A stretch of DNA of 64,000 bases from Nitrososphaera sp. (GCA_039938515.1 JBDUUL010000015.1:186001-250000), one strand, 5' to 3'; shown: positions 54,241 through 62,068, numbered from the stretch's first letter. Notes: a model not told the origin generated them from the sequence alone. Numbers and translations are program-made.

Positions 54241-55062
54241 CTAAGGGTACGGCAACCACGTGGTTGTGAAACTTGTGCCGGTGGCTGACAATCCCGACGT
54301 CGTCGAGCTTCCTCCGCTCGGATCCTGCATGTTGATTGGATCGTATCCGTGTGCGTTTACTGGTTGCAGAGCAGTGCCCGAGGCAGAATTGCGATATTCG
54401 CTGCTGCTAAAGTTAACCGAACCATAGTCTGCCAGCGGCAGGATTCCCTGGTAGTATGGCGCCTCAACTACCCATTCTGCAGACGAACGCTGTGCATTGG
54501 CAAAGAAGGATTTTGAGAACGTAAAGACGGTAGTCGAACCTCTTACATCCTTCATTGTCAAAGTAAAGATTTTGCCGCCGTTGTAAGTGACAGACGCAGT
54601 AATGGAGTCACCCGGATGAACCAGCGTTTGTGTGATGTAGTAGCCTGGATGGGGATACATTTCAAACCATGCGTAGTATACCGGGCTACCGCTCGAGCAG
54701 TCTTGCTCAGTACCTAGCTGCTCGACTGTACTATCGGAATATCCATCAATTCCTACCCACACAGAAGAGTATCCCACCGGGGTAACAGCGCAATTCACTG
54801 TCGGAACGGTCCAAGTGCCAACGACCTGATTGACGAATCTGGAAGTCGGGGATGTGATACTGGATTCTGCTGCGTATCCTGACCAGTTAGTGCTCGTGCT
54901 CTCCCTGACCCTCAACATCGGCGACGAGTGGTGAATCATGTGTGTAGAACTATCGGCAAATGCCTGAAGCACCGGAGTCGACCCAAGGACTGATGCTAGC
55001 AATATTGCCGCCATCGAGACGGATGCCTGTGTTTTATTTAACCTGGTTCCGATTAAAGGCAT
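54241..55062 (-). CDS. G1-type (eqolisin) glutamic endopeptidase
   Basis: A 273-residue exported protein with a signal peptide at residues 12-37. The mature start STSTNWSGYAAES and then GTWTVPTVNC, VWVGIDGYSD, VEQLGTEQDC and AEWVVEAPYY are the ordered motifs of peptidase family G1, whose catalytic pair is a glutamine and a glutamate. These sit in VEQ (about residue 115) and AEW (about residue 187). The family is best known from fungi and works in acid. An archaeal copy suggests horizontal gain or an old lineage, with extracellular protein or peptide hydrolysis. Confidence 0.75.
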   Translation of the reverse strand: MPLIGTRLNKTQASVSMAAILLASVLGSTPVLQAFADSSTHMIHHSSPMLRVRESTSTNWSGYAAESSITSPTSRFVNQVVGTWTVPTVNCAVTPVGYSSVWVGIDGYSDSTVEQLGTEQDCSSGSPVYYAWFEMYPHPGYYITQTLVHPGDSITASVTYNGGKIFTLTMKDVRGSTTVFTFSKSFFANAQRSSAEWVVEAPYYQGILPLADYGSVNFSSSEYRNSASGTALQPVNAHGYDPINMQDPSGGSSTTSGLSATGTSFTTTWLPYP

Positions 55063-55408
55063 ATACTACCGAATTATCTTATATAAGATTCTTATAAGGA
55101 TTTTCCAGGTACTTTTATCCACTTTATGGATCTTGTGACTTGGAATCGGATATCCCTGCAGTAAGCCTACTCGCCAACAGGAGCCATCTACTAACTGCCG
55201 CGCCTGAGACTTCTCATTCGTAACGGCTAGGAGCCGAGGTAGGCATGACGGATGATGGGGGGAGTATGGGACGGTAACTCAGTCAACCCTTGCCTGTATG
55301 GTCTCGAGTTGTTGCAAGTCTATGGGCCAATGGTGTGATGTTATCGGAGTTCAGGGCAATTGTAATAAATGAAGTGATTCTACGTTCGTACTGCCATCTT
55401 CAAAAGTG
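55063..55408. other. Intergenic stretch of about 350 bases
   Basis: AT-rich bases next to 55063 hold the promoter of the peptidase gene (TATA-like ATTATCTTATATAAG near 55071-55085). I see nothing else until the RNA element at 55409. The 15 bases TGTAATAAATGAAGT near 55361 also occur near 4960. Confidence 0.4.
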
Positions 55409-55467
55409 GGAGAGAGGTGCCTTTGAACAAGGCAACCATGCATTACTAGCGTGATAAGCCTCTCTCC
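55409..55467 (+). ncRNA. Three-way-junction RNA element, copy 1
   Basis: The outer stem GGAGAGAGG (55409-55417) pairs perfectly with CCTCTCTCC (55459-55467). Inside are two hairpins: GCCTT-TGAAC-AAGGC (55419-55433) and CATGC-ATTACTA-GCGTG (55437-55453), joined by AAC and followed by ATAAG. The copy at 59705-59762 has the same three helices, in which the paired bases differ but stay paired, and it keeps the linkers AAC and ATAA and the TGA in the first loop. That covariation supports a real fold. Strand is not proven because both orientations form stems. A DNA hairpin role (mobile-element end) is also possible. Confidence 0.55.
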
Positions 55468-55550
55468 AGGCAGTTAATCCTGCTCCGGGAGAACTTAACT
55501 TGTTAGTCCGTCAGTGAACATGTTTGGTATGGAGAGGCCCGTATGGAAAA

Positions 55551-55757
55551 ATGTTTGTTGGTTTATACCTTGGCCATGTTCAATCAAGGCACTTGAAGCC
55601 AGTTGAGACAAGACCGAGCACAAGGGACCCGGACAAATTTTCAAACGTCTGCTATGTCTGCTCTGACACTGCAACTACAGAGTGTTTGTTCGACATGGGC
55701 GGAGTACACGCAGTTAGAAGGTATTGCGACAAGTGCGCTCCGGAAGCGAGATTGTAA
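55551..55757 (+). CDS. CxxC...CxxC microprotein, copy A
   Basis: A 68-residue protein. I prefer the ATG at 55551 (MFVGLYLG) over an upstream TTG. The core VCYVCSDTATTECLFDMGGV then RRYCDKCAPEA has two C-x2-C pairs about 25 residues apart, as in a zinc ribbon. It is a paralogue of 55835-56002 and 59508-59696. It lies 84 bases after RNA element copy 1. Confidence 0.65.
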   Translation: MFVGLYLGHVQSRHLKPVETRPSTRDPDKFSNVCYVCSDTATTECLFDMGGVHAVRRYCDKCAPEARL

Positions 55758-55834
55758 CTTACAAGCGGTTCGCGCTTGTAGAACATGTTATCGACTTTAA
55801 GAAAGTCTTTCTGAGCCGGGCGCTTGAGGAGCTT

Positions 55835-56002
55835 ATGGCAAAGCCAAATGTGATAAGGCCCCTGACAAGGCACTCGGATAAACCGAAGGGCATTTGCTCC
55901 AAATGCTCAGTTCCGGCCACGGTCGAGGCATTGTTTGAGGAAACCGATGTTACTATTTTGCGAAGATACTGCGACAGGTGTCTCGCTGAGGCTGTAAGAT
56001 AG
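55835..56002 (+). CDS. CxxC...CxxC microprotein, copy B
   Basis: A 55-residue protein from an ATG, reading GICSKCSVPATVEALFEETD then LRRYCDRCLAEAV. It is highly similar in pattern to copy A (C-x2-C, AT-x-E, LF, RRYCD-x-C). It follows copy A by 77 bases on the same strand. It probably binds zinc. The role is unknown. Confidence 0.65.
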   Translation: MAKPNVIRPLTRHSDKPKGICSKCSVPATVEALFEETDVTILRRYCDRCLAEAVR

Positions 56003-56098
56003 GCTTTCGTTATCAAAAGGACGCTGGAGCCCGGTGACTATGTATAGATGTACAAGCTCATGATCTCATTCGCACTATGGCTCCTTGTCGCCACTAAA

Positions 56099-56365
56099 TC
56101 AAGACGATTCTAGCATTTTGCGCCCAAGCTCTGTAATCTTGTATCGCCTTGCCCCATCCGGTAGAATGACAAGCAGTCCTTCGGAAACCAGCTCCTCAAG
56201 CGCATTTGTTGCAACTTCGTACGTCACAAACGCTGAATGCATAATCGTCATTCTGGTTTCATAGCCGTTTAGAACCGCTATCAAGACATCCTTGACAATT
56301 TCATCCCTTGACCTACAACTTCCGTTAGAGTTGTCTTTGTGGTCGTCGTCTGAGGGTCGCAACAC
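56099..56365 (-). CDS. Small winged-helix regulator (HTH_45 type)
   Basis: An 88-residue DNA-binding protein: SRDEIVKDVLIAVLNGYETR, YEVATNALEELVSEGLLVIL, ARRYKITELGRKMLES. It is the same family as 12900-13157. It lies 83 bases from the receiver gene on the same strand. Confidence 0.75.
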   Translation of the reverse strand: MLRPSDDDHKDNSNGSCRSRDEIVKDVLIAVLNGYETRMTIMHSAFVTYEVATNALEELVSEGLLVILPDGARRYKITELGRKMLESS

Positions 56366-56448
56366 TCTCTTATTTTAGCTCAAATTCTACAAATCAAGCA
56401 GGAATGCAGTGCAATGCAATTATTGAGAACTTTTGAGACTGCAGCAGC

Positions 56449-56844
56449 CTAGCGTTCTTTTGATTGGCTCTTTGCCAGGCGTGTCCGAATATGCCTCGCC
56501 AGTGCCTCAATGGCAATAGGCTTTGTCAGAAAGCAATGGTTCTTCATGCTTGGAAAGGCCCTTCTCGCTTCAGCCTCATAGATTTCAAAGGCCGTCAGAA
56601 AGCAAACTTGTAAACTACTATTCTTTTCCCAAAGTGCCCGTGCCAGCTCAAAGCCATTCATGCCCGGCATTCTAATGTCTAAAAGTGCAAGGTCGTACTC
56701 TGCATGGTAATACTTTGCAAGCGCCACTACTGGATTGTCAAATGCCGTAACAGCAAACCCCTCTAATTCGAGGCCTCGTTTAAGGGTGGATAGGATGTCT
56801 TTCTCGTCTTCCACAAGTAATATCCGACTAGCGGTTGTAGCCAT
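56449..56844 (-). CDS. Lone response-regulator receiver domain
   Basis: A 131-residue CheY-like protein. The acidic pocket is VEDEKD (about residue 12), the phospho-acceptor Asp is in LALLDIRMPGMNG (about residue 56), Thr is in FLTAFE, and Lys in FLTKPI (about residue 109). There is no output domain. It may receive phosphate from a kinase such as that at 31317. An isolated winged-helix gene next to it may be its output. Confidence 0.85.
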   Translation of the reverse strand: MATTASRILLVEDEKDILSTLKRGLELEGFAVTAFDNPVVALAKYYHAEYDLALLDIRMPGMNGFELARALWEKNSSLQVCFLTAFEIYEAEARRAFPSMKNHCFLTKPIAIEALARHIRTRLAKSQSKER

Positions 56845-57263
56845 GCCCCATCACCAAAGCTGCTCTAAGGCAAAGTAACAGAGGCATTCCTTATAGTAGC
56901 AAGTAGCAGTATTTTAATCTTAAAAGATGGTTCAGGCTTCAGAGGGCCAATTCGTCTTCAAAACTTCTTCTTGTTATCAGCGAGTACGCGCATTCAAGGT
57001 TGCAGCATTCACAATCAGTTTCAACGCATGCTATTCGTGAGTCATGGTCACACTGCCTGCATGGGCATTTGGCGACAAAGCCTAGGTCAGCAATGGCAAG
57101 GTTTGAACTCACGAGTGGTCATTTATCCGCTGGTACTACCAGTTATGCACGCTACAACTGTCTTTCGCTCTGAAATGAGCTAATGAATGCGCATTAAGCT
57201 CGATGACAGCCACTGATTGGACAATAAGACCATCAATTAACCTTCAGCCCGCGAGTTGTTTTT

Positions 57264-57461
57264 CTAATAGCTGTTGCCCCTTAACGTCTTGATGTTTTTG
57301 TCTATCTGGACGAGAAGCACCTGATTTTGTTGGAGTAATGACTGATTCTGCACCAAGACGGCCTTGATTTCGTCTAGCAATTGGTTGTTAACGGTGGAAA
57401 GTTTTATCATTTCTCTTTGATACAGCCGGGTAAGGGCATCTTGGCCTGCGTCTTCTGACAT
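57264..57461 (-). CDS. Coiled-coil microprotein (paralogue)
   Basis: A 65-residue protein. I chose the ATG at 57461 (MSEDAGQDAL) rather than the upstream start, which would run into the tRNA-like element. The helix LSTVNNQLLDEIKAVLVQNQ, SLLQQNQVLLVQIDKNIK shares the QN/LL pattern with 7237 and 27123. Confidence 0.6.
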   Translation of the reverse strand: MSEDAGQDALTRLYQREMIKLSTVNNQLLDEIKAVLVQNQSLLQQNQVLLVQIDKNIKTLRGNSY

Positions 57462-57530
57462 GGTGTACTGTATGCGCAGGTCGCTTATACGCAATTGGCT
57501 GAGTTTGAATCTGGAGCGCTGGCCAAGAAG

Positions 57531-57606
57531 GTCTGGCACGTGGCCTAGAACACAGGAGTCGAACCTCCGCATGGCAAGTTACCCTACCAAAAGACCGTTA
57601 CCCGCT
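57531..57606 (-). ncRNA. 76-nt tRNA-like element, copy 1
   Basis: The minus strand has a perfect B-box-like GGTTCGACTCC in a T-arm-like hairpin (GGAG/CTCC) and a GGTC helix pairing with GGCC. A hairpin with loop GGGTAACT and a TTGCCA 3' arm matches copy 2 at 61957. Unlike a tRNA, the helices fold as a closed stem with a three-way junction, and there is no proper anticodon arm. The closing stem (AGCGGGT with GCCAGAC) is only partly paired here. It may be a decayed tRNA, an integration scar or a structured RNA. Confidence 0.4.
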
Positions 57607-57780
57607 TGTGTTGAACCGTGTCTTTAAGTAGCGCTATTATGCGCGTGTGCGTGTATTACTATAATAGTGCGTCCTTTTATCCATGGCAGTAAGTTTTTCG
57701 CAGCCTCGGACGTCTGACCTGGGGGTAACCTTTTCCGTCTTGACGTGCATCTCTAACGCACAGGAAGTTTAATACACAAA

Positions 57781-58041
57781 GTGCAGATGCTGACTTTCCG
57801 CGACTTGGCCATACGTACTCCTCGGTCCGATAAAAATGAAAGAGAGGGCTTGGACCCGCGCGGCAAGTCTATAATGGTATTTGCAATGGGTCTTTTGATT
57901 TCAATTATTGTTTTAATCCCAAATGGTATATTATTTTACTGGCCGTGGCTTCCTTATTCAGTGATTATTATCTTCATGTGCAGTTTCGTCCCGGCGACAA
58001 TTGTATACTATTTCAGCAAGGCATCTGAGACGGCAAACTAG
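57781..58041 (+). CDS. Small two-TM membrane protein
   Basis: An 86-residue protein from a GTG with helices at about 32-54 (VFAMGLLISIIVLIPNGI) and 56-76. Its 3' end overlaps the next membrane gene by 41 bases, which suggests paired expression. No family is recognised. Confidence 0.55.
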   Translation: MQMLTFRDLAIRTPRSDKNEREGLDPRGKSIMVFAMGLLISIIVLIPNGILFYWPWLPYSVIIIFMCSFVPATIVYYFSKASETAN

Positions 58042-58300
58042 ATACGCAGAAAAGTTAGAGCCTTTATTCAATGGTGTGCAGTTTCTCATTTTCGTAATTG
58101 GTAGCCTGATTACTCTCTTCGGTTGTTGGTCTGATGTTGGTGTATTTTTCAGTGGCAATGGAGACCTGCCTATTTCTTGGGAGTCTTTCATTATTCCCGG
58201 TGGAATTACCGCTTTAGGTGTTGGGCTGTTGTTATTCGGTCTAATGGAATCCAATTCAAAGACATCCAGTGCTGACCGAATTAATCGACCCCTTCATTGA
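58001..58300 (+). CDS. Small two-TM membrane protein, overlapping partner
   Basis: A 99-residue protein from a TTG within the previous gene. Helices are at about 26-48 (VQFLIFVIGSLITLFGCW) and 62-83. A translationally coupled pair is likely. Function is unknown. Confidence 0.5.
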   Translation: MYTISARHLRRQTRYAEKLEPLFNGVQFLIFVIGSLITLFGCWSDVGVFFSGNGDLPISWESFIIPGGITALGVGLLLFGLMESNSKTSSADRINRPLH

Positions 58301-58326
58301 TTCAAATGGTTATACGTTGTTGTAAG

Positions 58327-58345
58327 AGCGCCGCGAGTTAACACC
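58327..58345. repeat. Dispersed 19-bp repeat, copy 2
   Basis: Identical to 9131-9149, with the same TTGTAA before it. It sits in a gap of about 570 bases (58301-58867) that contains no supported gene. Confidence 0.5.
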
Positions 58346-58671
58346 TAACTGGAAAAAAGGAAAAAAGGGTGAAGGAAGATGGCTTTAGAAATGCTATCTA
58401 TTTTAGATACTTCAGCACTGATTACACATTCCGAGACTGAGAGACCGTTGGGCCTGTGAGCTTTATGGCAAGGTATTTGAGGATATGACTGAGGGGCAAT
58501 GGAGAAATGCACGAAAAATGCACCAGGATAGCGCTTACTGTAAGAAGAACAGAAATTCACATCAATTCCAGCGATTCGACCCTGGGTCCTTAACCAACTG
58601 CGAGCTATTGGCAGCCCTTGGAAATATTAGGCTATGACTCTGATGACTAGACAGCGCGTTAATTCGTGCAG

Positions 58672-58745
58672 GCAGGGGCACCGGTTCAATTGGGCTCAAA
58701 CTTTTGGACTTGCCCCTGCTTCTTTTAGTAGAAAATGACGGGCCT
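58672..58745 (+). repeat. Long inverted repeat plus shared flank
   Basis: GCAGGGGCA (58672-58680) pairs perfectly with TGCCCCTGC (58711-58719) around a loop that holds GGTTCAAT. The 3' arm and the following TTCTTTTAGTAGAAAA (itself a small hairpin) are nearly repeated at 61933-61956, directly next to tRNA-like copy 2. It may be a decayed third copy of that element's flank. Confidence 0.45.
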
Positions 58746-58867
58746 AAATCGTGGCTCCAGAAATGCGCATTTGTGATTTTGCGATCATGACTTCTTTCCA
58801 AAAGATCAATGATAAAATTTTGGATTCTCATTAGCTACTTATATGAGCGCATTTTCTTCGATGCGTG

Positions 58868-59380
58868 ATGAACCTATGGCTGCCAGCCTTGCTGCTTGCT
58901 CTTCTAGCCGTTCCAGTCCTTGCATTTGCAGACACTAATTCTCAGACCGTCAATGGCGGGTCAACACCTGTTTCAGTCTCGGTGGTAAACACTGGCTTTG
59001 GCGGCAGCGGGATATTCAACGTCACATTCACGCAACAAGACAACCCTGGCAAGCTGGTTCGTAACGATAATTTTACGCTCACAGTCAGCCAGAATGGTAA
59101 CATCGTTTACAACGCTTCCAAAGTCTACGGGCAGCCCATCATATCGAGCCCAAGCGGCACAAGGATTTTTGATATGGCCCTTGTTCCAAACCTTGGCTAT
59201 ACTGCACATCTGATTGTATATGGCGTTGGCGGCGCAGCTGTTCCACAACAAAGTTTTGACTTTACGTATGAAAACGGCAAGTATACATCCACCCCTGAAT
59301 TTCCTCTTGCTCCCACAGTGGCGATAGCTGCAATCGGCATTGTAGTGCTCATAATGCGGCTCGCGGCGAGAGCAAAATAG
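58868..59380 (+). CDS. Small secreted PEF-anchored protein
   Basis: A 170-residue exported protein with a signal peptide at residues 2-21, an Ig-like beta domain (FNVTFTQQDNPGKLV, NDNFTLTVSQNGNIVYNA) and a C-terminal STPEFPLAPTVAIAAIGIVV then RLAARAK sorting tail. A TATA box (CTTATATGA, about 58835-58843) lies about 25-30 bases before the ATG, so the message is leaderless. A GTG precedes the ATG. Confidence 0.7.
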   Translation: MNLWLPALLLALLAVPVLAFADTNSQTVNGGSTPVSVSVVNTGFGGSGIFNVTFTQQDNPGKLVRNDNFTLTVSQNGNIVYNASKVYGQPIISSPSGTRIFDMALVPNLGYTAHLIVYGVGGAAVPQQSFDFTYENGKYTSTPEFPLAPTVAIAAIGIVVLIMRLAARAK

Positions 59381-59507
59381 CTCGCAGCATGAGTTCGGCT
59401 ATTGCTATTCGTTTCGTTGAAAGGTCAAAAAAGCGTCGAGGCAGCTGCGGTTGACTGTAGCCTAGGCAGTAGGTTTTAAAGACGACAGTTAGACACGCGG
59501 CAGGTTT

Positions 59508-59696
59508 ATGCAGCGAATATTCCAGTCTGTTAGTCCTATTTCAGAGAAGGCGAATGACATGTATGGTTACGTGTGTTTTGACTGTTATGAGCGTGCAACT
59601 AAAGAGGTCCACTATGAGCAGGGCGATATCATACTCAAAGAGCGATATTGCGACGCCTGTGCAGAAGCAGCATTGAACAATCAGGCAGAATCGTAA
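59508..59696 (+). CDS. CxxC...CxxC microprotein, copy C
   Basis: A 62-residue protein: YGYVCFDCYERATKEVHYEQ then LKERYCDACAEAAL. It has the same C-x2-C / AT-x-E / RYCD-x-C frame as copies A and B. A TATA-like TTTTAAAG (about 59473-59480) supports the ATG at 59508. RNA element copy 2 begins 9 bases after its stop. Confidence 0.65.
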   Translation: MQRIFQSVSPISEKANDMYGYVCFDCYERATKEVHYEQGDIILKERYCDACAEAALNNQAES

Positions 59697-59704
59697 ATTA
59701 TAGT

Positions 59705-59762
59705 GGGAGAGAGGAGCCTTTGATAAGGAAACCATACAGGGAGTATGATAACCTCCTCTCCC
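59705..59762 (+). ncRNA. Three-way-junction RNA element, copy 2
   Basis: The outer stem GGGAGAG+AGG (59705-59714) pairs with CCT+CTCTCCC (59752-59762, one bulged C). Hairpin 1 is CCTT-TGAT-AAGG (59717-59728) and hairpin 2 is CATAC-AGGGA-GTATG (59733-59747), with linkers AAC and ATAA. Hairpin 2 differs from copy 1 at two pairs, both changed on each side. It lies just 3' of copy C. Strand is uncertain. Confidence 0.55.
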
Positions 59763-60240: not shown

Positions 60241-60450
60241 TTGCTAATGCGTCCAGGCACCGGGATAAAAGATAGCTGTCATGTTTTAGAAGGGCCAGGG
60301 GGAACGCCCGTGTGGAAGGGGCTAATGTCGAGGGCGCTCAGCCTGACCCCGATGTCTTGAGCACATTGACAGTGGAAGAAAAAGATAAAGTCATTGAAAA
60401 CTTCAACTGGTAAACTGTTATCGAAAACACCCTGGGTGAAATTCAAGGCA

Positions 60451-60771
60451 TCAGAGTATGCAGTAGCAGTTGTTCAATATTCTGTCTGATACCTCCACTC
60501 CCTTTTCTGTTAATCTGAGATTCGAAGTAAGATAAAGGAAAAGGCAATCTCCTTTCGCAGCACACTTCCCGAGCCAATAATCCTTCTCGACGCACAGCAG
60601 GTCAGAGCCAACTGCGCTCTGAACAGAAATCTTGTCAAGCCCCTTCATAGAAAGCTCAACCATTGATACCGACCTGTGATGTCTTAGATAAAGAAGGATT
60701 TCTTTGAGAAATGTTGAGGAGGATAGGCACTTTACGATCTCGGTATCTTCACCCTCGCAAACAAAATTCAT
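60451..60771 (-). CDS. Possible winged-helix small protein
   Basis: A 106-residue frame with LKEILLYLRHHRSVSMVELS, a variable middle with several cysteines, and a typical end RLTEKGVEVSDRILN as in winged-helix proteins. It may bind DNA. The assignment is weak. Confidence 0.45.
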   Translation of the reverse strand: MNFVCEGEDTEIVKCLSSSTFLKEILLYLRHHRSVSMVELSMKGLDKISVQSAVGSDLLCVEKDYWLGKCAAKGDCLFLYLTSNLRLTEKGVEVSDRILNNCYCIL

Positions 60772-61905: not shown

Positions 61906-61956
61906 AATCTGAACATAAAACCTTTGGACTGTACCCCTGCTTCTTTTAATAGAAAA

Positions 61957-62032
61957 GGCGGGCACGTGGTCTTGAATTACAGGAGTCGGACTCCTTATGG
62001 CAAGTTACCCTGCCATTGGACCGTTACCCGCC
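61957..62032 (-). ncRNA. 76-nt tRNA-like element, copy 2
   Basis: On the minus strand GGCGGGT pairs with GCCCGCC as a seven-pair closing stem. GGTC pairs with GACC. ATGGCA pairs with TGCCAT around loop GGGTAACT, and AGGAG pairs with CTCCT around TCCGA. It has the length of a tRNA and the same fold as copy 1, with base-pair changes that keep pairing (TTGGTA against ATGGCA; GGCC against GACC). It lacks a canonical anticodon arm, so it is probably not a translation tRNA. Confidence 0.5.
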
Positions 62033-62068
62033 TTGTGTGAACCGCCCTAGGCGTATCAGGGCTAGTGT

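Follow-up and report, generated by a model that had tools for sequence, protein, structure and literature searches.

Two short, similarly folding stretches of an archaeal genome, each beside the gene of a small zinc protein, raise the question of whether such a pair is a regulatory RNA, a noncoding RNA of another kind, or part of an element that spreads through its host. The question comes from a 64,000-nucleotide stretch of Nitrososphaera sp. (hereafter the window), which corresponds to positions 186001-250000 of contig 15 (C15) in a genome of 2.56 Mb that is assembled in 24 contigs and is 99.84% complete. Positions without a contig name are counted in the window. Most knowledge of structured dispersed repeats comes from bacteria.

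Results

The two copies in the window

The original prediction described two copies of a covarying three-way-junction element, here called E1 and E2 of element E (Table 1), and re-reading of the window bore out their sequence and coordinates. Each copy, when folded alone, gave the predicted outer stem with two hairpins, at -26.9 kcal/mol for E1 (z -4.2) and -22.5 kcal/mol for E2 (z -2.7). The arms of the outer stem occupy 55409-55417 and 55459-55467 in E1, and 59705-59714 and 59753-59762 in E2. The spacing to the neighboring CxxC microprotein genes (84 bases from E1 to gene A and 9 bases from gene C to E2) was also correct. The covariation claimed between E1 and E2 came down to one true double change, from G-C to A-U in hairpin 2, the remainder being G-U exchanges.

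Table 1. Positions of the features discussed in the text (window coordinates unless a contig is named)
Feature	Position	Strand	Basis or remark
E1, compact copy of element E, three-way junction	55405-55467	. (written on + in the original prediction)	fold and covariance model, 69.9 bits
CxxC microprotein A	55551-55757	+	adjoins E1; listed as context, not as a demonstrated part of the repeat
R3 copy, divergent	57528-57608 (C15:243528-243608)	-	R3 model, E-value 7.7e-8
M palindromic repeat	58672-58719 (within 58614-58743)	.	lies between E and R3 in the 0.43-kb unit
CxxC microprotein C	59508-59696	+	stops 9 bp short of E2; listed as context, as for microprotein A
E2, compact copy of element E	59702-59762	.	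fold and covariance model, 71.0 bits
R2 structured repeat	60286-60455	+	self-comparison of contig 15; 0.5 kb after E2
M, further window copy	61918-61953
R3 copy, typical	61954-62036 (C15:247954-248036)	-	R3 model, E-value 3.5e-18
Full E copies on contig 15	C15: 87843, 91896, 241411 (E1), 245708 (E2), 253908, 258639, 314057, 324826		covariance model
Full E copies off contig 15	C1: 55355; C20: 73846; C24: 294538		covariance model
Truncated E copy	C15:252828

Distribution of element E

With E1 as the query, blastn against its own genome returned nine further places, seven of them with an E-value of at most 1e-3. A covariance model trained on six compact copies, and modelled on the plus strand, identified 11 full copies in the whole genome with E-values from 1.5e-18 to 5.6e-6; decayed or truncated copies were found at C15:252828 and about C15:90650. 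The copies on contig 15 form clusters at 87-92 kb, 241-259 kb and 314-325 kb. In compact copies the loop of hairpin 2 has about seven bases, and hairpin 2 is longer in three copies (those on C1 and C24 and at C15 258639). Every full copy lies outside likely genes, save one that overlaps an extended cupin frame. All copies lie on the same contig strand, which is weak evidence because contig orientation is arbitrary and the contig-15 copies are clustered.

The original prediction had made further covarying homologs in Nitrososphaeria the test of the element, and beyond the element's own genome the result was negative: matches came from one of 70 genomes of the family and one of 200 of the class, in both searches the own genome. 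None of the 69 other family genomes, 17 of them from the same genus, and none of the 199 other class genomes gave a match at an E-value of 0.01 or less, and an improved model reached no better than about 0.6 in sister species, in two of them. The exact core of E was absent from 85,000 GTDB species genomes and from IMG/VR, and no match was found in plasmid and phage collections or, at the gathering cut-off or an E-value of up to 5, in Rfam. A literature search on noncoding RNAs or repeats of Nitrososphaera found nothing relevant. The outer stem of E is low-complexity purine/pyrimidine sequence, which would favor a chance likeness among GA-rich palindromes. The core TGATGAG-AAGGCAACCATGC nevertheless recurs, E-values reach 1e-18 and the 199 class genomes are matchless, so that chance likeness is practically ruled out.

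Relation to the CxxC microprotein genes

Three CxxC...YCxxC microproteins are encoded near the two copies, the two of Table 1 and a third at 55838-56002; none had a Pfam match above the curated cut-off. Their proximity to both window copies suggested a cis-regulatory element, similar to a riboswitch or attenuator, for genes of small zinc proteins, in which the 3' arm of the outer stem could re-pair with a downstream TCCGGGAGA; such an alternative partner (CCGGGAGA or similar) could be recognized by eye downstream of about 7 of the 11 copies. We consider this reading very unlikely. A CxxC gene lies within 200 bp of only three of the 11 copies (E1, E2 and C15 91896) and about 780 bp away at C1, and no CxxC gene was found near the remaining copies. 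The CxxC family itself has 18 matches in the genome at an E-value of at most 1, which are scattered and mostly without E nearby. Furthermore, the distance to the next gene varies from 84 to more than 600 bp, the alternative pairing is missing in at least two copies, and E has no phylogenetic depth. The genes around the copies include HTH_45 regulators, response regulators, a cupin and secreted proteins, most of them named by reading the sequence and a few by scanning, and no gene family shared downstream of the copies was found. E is in all likelihood not a dedicated regulator of zinc microproteins, and the association proposed at the outset is incidental for most copies. In the same neighborhood, 54241-55062 on the minus strand encodes a Peptidase A4 family protein (PF01828, E-value 3e-31), in an archaeal genome.

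A nest of repeats around element E

The copies of E occur among other structured repeats, termed R2, M and R3, that were mapped on contig 15 and on three 20-kb stretches, while model searches covered the whole genome. R2 has five copies, all five of which were seen downstream of E on the same strand, and its reading frames are not conserved between copies. M is a palindromic repeat, GCAGGGGCA...TGCCCCTGC, in which a single compensatory change turns GGGGTA/TACCCC into GGGGCA/TGCCCC. At six of nine contig-15 sites, an R3 copy comes after E at a distance of no more than 2.3 kb; in 20,000 circular shifts the mean was 0.36 and the maximum 4, and no shift reached 6.

A unit of about 0.43 kb, E-M-R3, is present twice, at C1 and at C15 258639 (the locus pair L018-L021), with sharp ends: 427 nt are common to both at 84.5% identity, starting with the 5' arm of E, taking in M and stopping where R3 ends, and no similarity was seen outside. 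The termini of the unit, AAAGTGGG and CCCGCCTTT, are partly inverted, and the outer arms of E are inverted repeats of about 9-14 bp that also form the RNA stem.

Separately, a block of about 0.4-0.7 kb occurs three times (57215-57708, C15 94299-95039 and C15 271808-272233), at 84-85% identity for two pairs; it contains an R3 copy, and two of its three occurrences also have a small coiled-coil-like ORF. Long palindromes with 10-bp arms number 37 on contig 15, compared with about 21 expected.

Fold and strand of R3 and element E

R3 is a second three-way junction of about 83 nt on the minus strand, with an outer stem of AAAGGCGGG/CCCGCCTTT. Its model detected 13 copies in its own genome, two of them in the window, and no match in the other 17 genomes of the genus or the 69 of the family. 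The alignment holds 14 matches at 13 sites, one site being matched on both strands, and it was built with the model itself, so that its counts lean towards structure. In this alignment both sides had changed in 14 of 26 pairs, which none of 500 shuffles matched. When the duplicate row was omitted, G-U combinations outnumbered A-C on the minus strand (38 vs 6 cells), and the consensus fold has -23.1 on its own strand vs -2.6 on the other. Based on the double changes, the G-U excess and the energy gap between strands, R3 looks like a real RNA fold and appears better supported as RNA than E. A tRNA search of the window returned nothing, though R3 has a T-arm-like hairpin. Cross-searches between E and R3 reached only about 8.5 bits (E-value about 4) at E sites, and homology of the two is not claimed. 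Divergent R3-like palindromes, AAGGCGGGCA...TGCCCGCCTT, occur at C15 274377 and 324930, with differing interiors.

For E itself, the alignment of 11 copies has 95.2% of its cells paired, vs 46-63% when one strand is slid. The covariation that the original prediction had proposed is a different matter: 3 of 17 pairs changed on both sides, and since 61 of 500 shuffles equalled this, E alone gives no strong covariation. Broken hairpin-2 pairs in two or three other copies are expected of decaying repeats. The fold of E is kept, yet its covariation is modest.

The coding strand of E appears to lean to minus. Folds on that strand have the better z-score in 10 of 12 copies (mean about -4.0 vs -3.1 on plus); most copies have a z of -2.3 to -6.9 on at least one strand, and C15:324826 is weak on both. 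The consensus of the three long-hairpin copies folds at -32.2 kcal/mol on minus vs -23.7 on plus, and that of the compact copies is a tie by strand (-17.3 against -17.7 kcal/mol). The supposedly fixed linkers AAC and ATAA/ATTG are not evidently single-stranded, since on the opposite strand both can lengthen hairpin 2 by at least two pairs; as read off the aligned rows, the base of hairpin 2 gains two pairs in all 11 copies on minus only. Hairpin 1 speaks against minus, with U-G pairs that are possible on plus only, in three copies.

This minus-strand lean, seen in the z-scores, the long-hairpin consensus and the extra hairpin-2 pairs, together with the recurring order and orientation of the modules, would favor reading E-M-R3 as one multi-domain minus-strand noncoding RNA of about 0.43 kb, with R3 as its 5' part, E forming a terminator-like 3' stem followed by CUUU, and the compact copies as pieces of it. 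We regard such an RNA as improbable: near-complete units number just two, R2 stands in place of M downstream of compact copies, three R3 copies that have no E are in the opposite orientation, and the plus-only U-G pairs and the tie of the compact copies do not decide for minus.

Conservation of E relative to its flanks

Identities between pairs of loci give no uniform picture of how well E is conserved compared with its flank. E is 94% identical between L011 and L012, vs 70-80% for the flank, as expected if E and R3 were host-encoded small RNAs, or UTR elements, of two families that had expanded in this lineage by ordinary gene duplication and worked in trans or on transcript stability. This is the main rival to a dispersed repeat, and it also draws on the strong R3 covariation, on the pairing kept in E and on the position of all 11 full copies between likely genes, with only the cupin overlap. 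In other pairs E is conserved less than or equally to the spacer (84% vs 94% in L011-L013; 83% vs 85-90% in L018-L021). No conserved TATA-like position was apparent by eye upstream of E, the shared E-M-R3 unit stops at the outer stems and contains no promoter, and sister species have no matches. Although a host RNA function of E is possible, we find the two-family explanation as a whole rather unlikely.

Signs of possible insertion and the search for a mobilizer

At L013 (C15 253518-253949), a cupin ORF has its C terminus replaced by a frame that runs into the E copy at C15:253908. Relatives of this cupin end in ...FTGAKTYAK(K)*, and here the frame continues some 27 residues further, into E. 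This fusion would fit insertion or rearrangement at a gene end, and is not empty-site proof. A neighboring cupin has its best matches, at 66-72% identity, in Nitrososphaera MAGs. An empty site was sought at one locus, where sister genomes were too diverged to align at the DNA level, and inspection of seven units by eye gave no consistent flanking direct repeat as a target-site duplication.

Among possible mobilizers, IS200/IS605 ends were ruled out as no Y1 transposase (Y1_Tnp) was found. The search for DDE_Tnp_1 gave no well-preserved transposase, only one weak match with two in-frame TAG codons, and an IS5-like remnant near C20:69518 had no matching terminal repeats in the search made. Integron attC sites appear to fit poorly: the copies of E are at least 4 kb apart, and the usual core sites seem to be missing.

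Discussion

The interpretation in the original prediction, which left room for a noncoding RNA, a cis-regulatory element and the hairpin terminus of a mobile element, is partly supported. The 11 copies confined to one genome fit a dispersed repeat best. On balance we lean towards E being one of the building blocks of a family of non-autonomous dispersed repeats that is restricted to this species and has a conserved branched fold, based on its copy number, restriction to its own genome, clustering, recurrent order with R2, M and R3, sharp ends and kept fold. Several observations speak against this reading: no consistent target duplication or empty site and, among Y1 and DDE_Tnp_1 transposases, no mobilizer was found, E is not AT-rich, and the clear RNA-level constraint on the R3 fold is needless for a passive repeat.

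If E is such a dispersed repeat, units or single modules would be copied as DNA into new intergenic sites, through either a trans-acting enzyme or recombination among clustered copies. Read-through by RNA polymerase would then yield repeat transcripts that fold into stable stems, and selection on the fold, clear for R3 and weaker for E, may stem from the copying step or from an influence on transcript ends. A bolder version makes R3-M-E itself what spreads, as a new multi-domain structured RNA of about 0.43 kb (an RNA-defined selfish or SINE-like element). It is suggested by the outer stems of the terminal folds, where the repeated unit ends, and by the folds being kept at the RNA level; we give it little credence.

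Two co-localized families with branched folds, confined to one ammonia-oxidizing soil archaeon, would show such repeats arising and spreading within a single species. Should R3 be transcribed, it would make a good candidate for a new family of archaeal RNAs with genuine covariation. The locus also carries a caution, namely that two covarying copies beside a gene should not be read as a regulator.

Comparison with known systems

Small multicopy repeats with stably folding transcripts are a known kind of element (PMC2229807, PMC10969869, PMC2267715). Riboswitches and other cis-regulatory RNAs share with E the three-way junction, the conserved loops and, in several copies, a downstream segment with which the 3' arm might pair instead. 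Unlike them, E has no common downstream gene class, no phylogenetic spread and no Rfam match.

MITEs and other small mobile repeats, such as Correia/NEMIS, ERIC, RUP and RPE (PMC2229807, PMC10969869), resemble the present modules in size (from less than 200 bp to the 0.43-kb unit), partly inverted ends, stable transcript folds, the coexistence of several families in one genome and the fusion of one copy into the end of an ORF. In contrast to MITE-like repeats, E has no consistent target-site duplication, TA termini or AT-richness, and no matching autonomous element was found. Because target duplication and a partner element were not found, E is not filed as a MITE.

The nearest known kinds are these MITE-like repeats and the stem-loop sequence (SLS) repeat families of bacterial genomes (PMC2267715). 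Like E, the SLS repeats are multicopy in one genome and mostly intergenic, share a common predicted structure and possibly act at the RNA level. In copy number, a shared structure above that of shuffles and a mostly intergenic position, E agrees with the looser definition of a stem-loop repeat. It differs from the SLS repeats in its archaeal host, in its branched three-way junction with conserved hairpin loops, and in being ordered with other structured modules. Because its fold is branched, its host is an archaeon and it recurs in a set order with a covarying second family, we place E as a variant of the stem-loop repeats.
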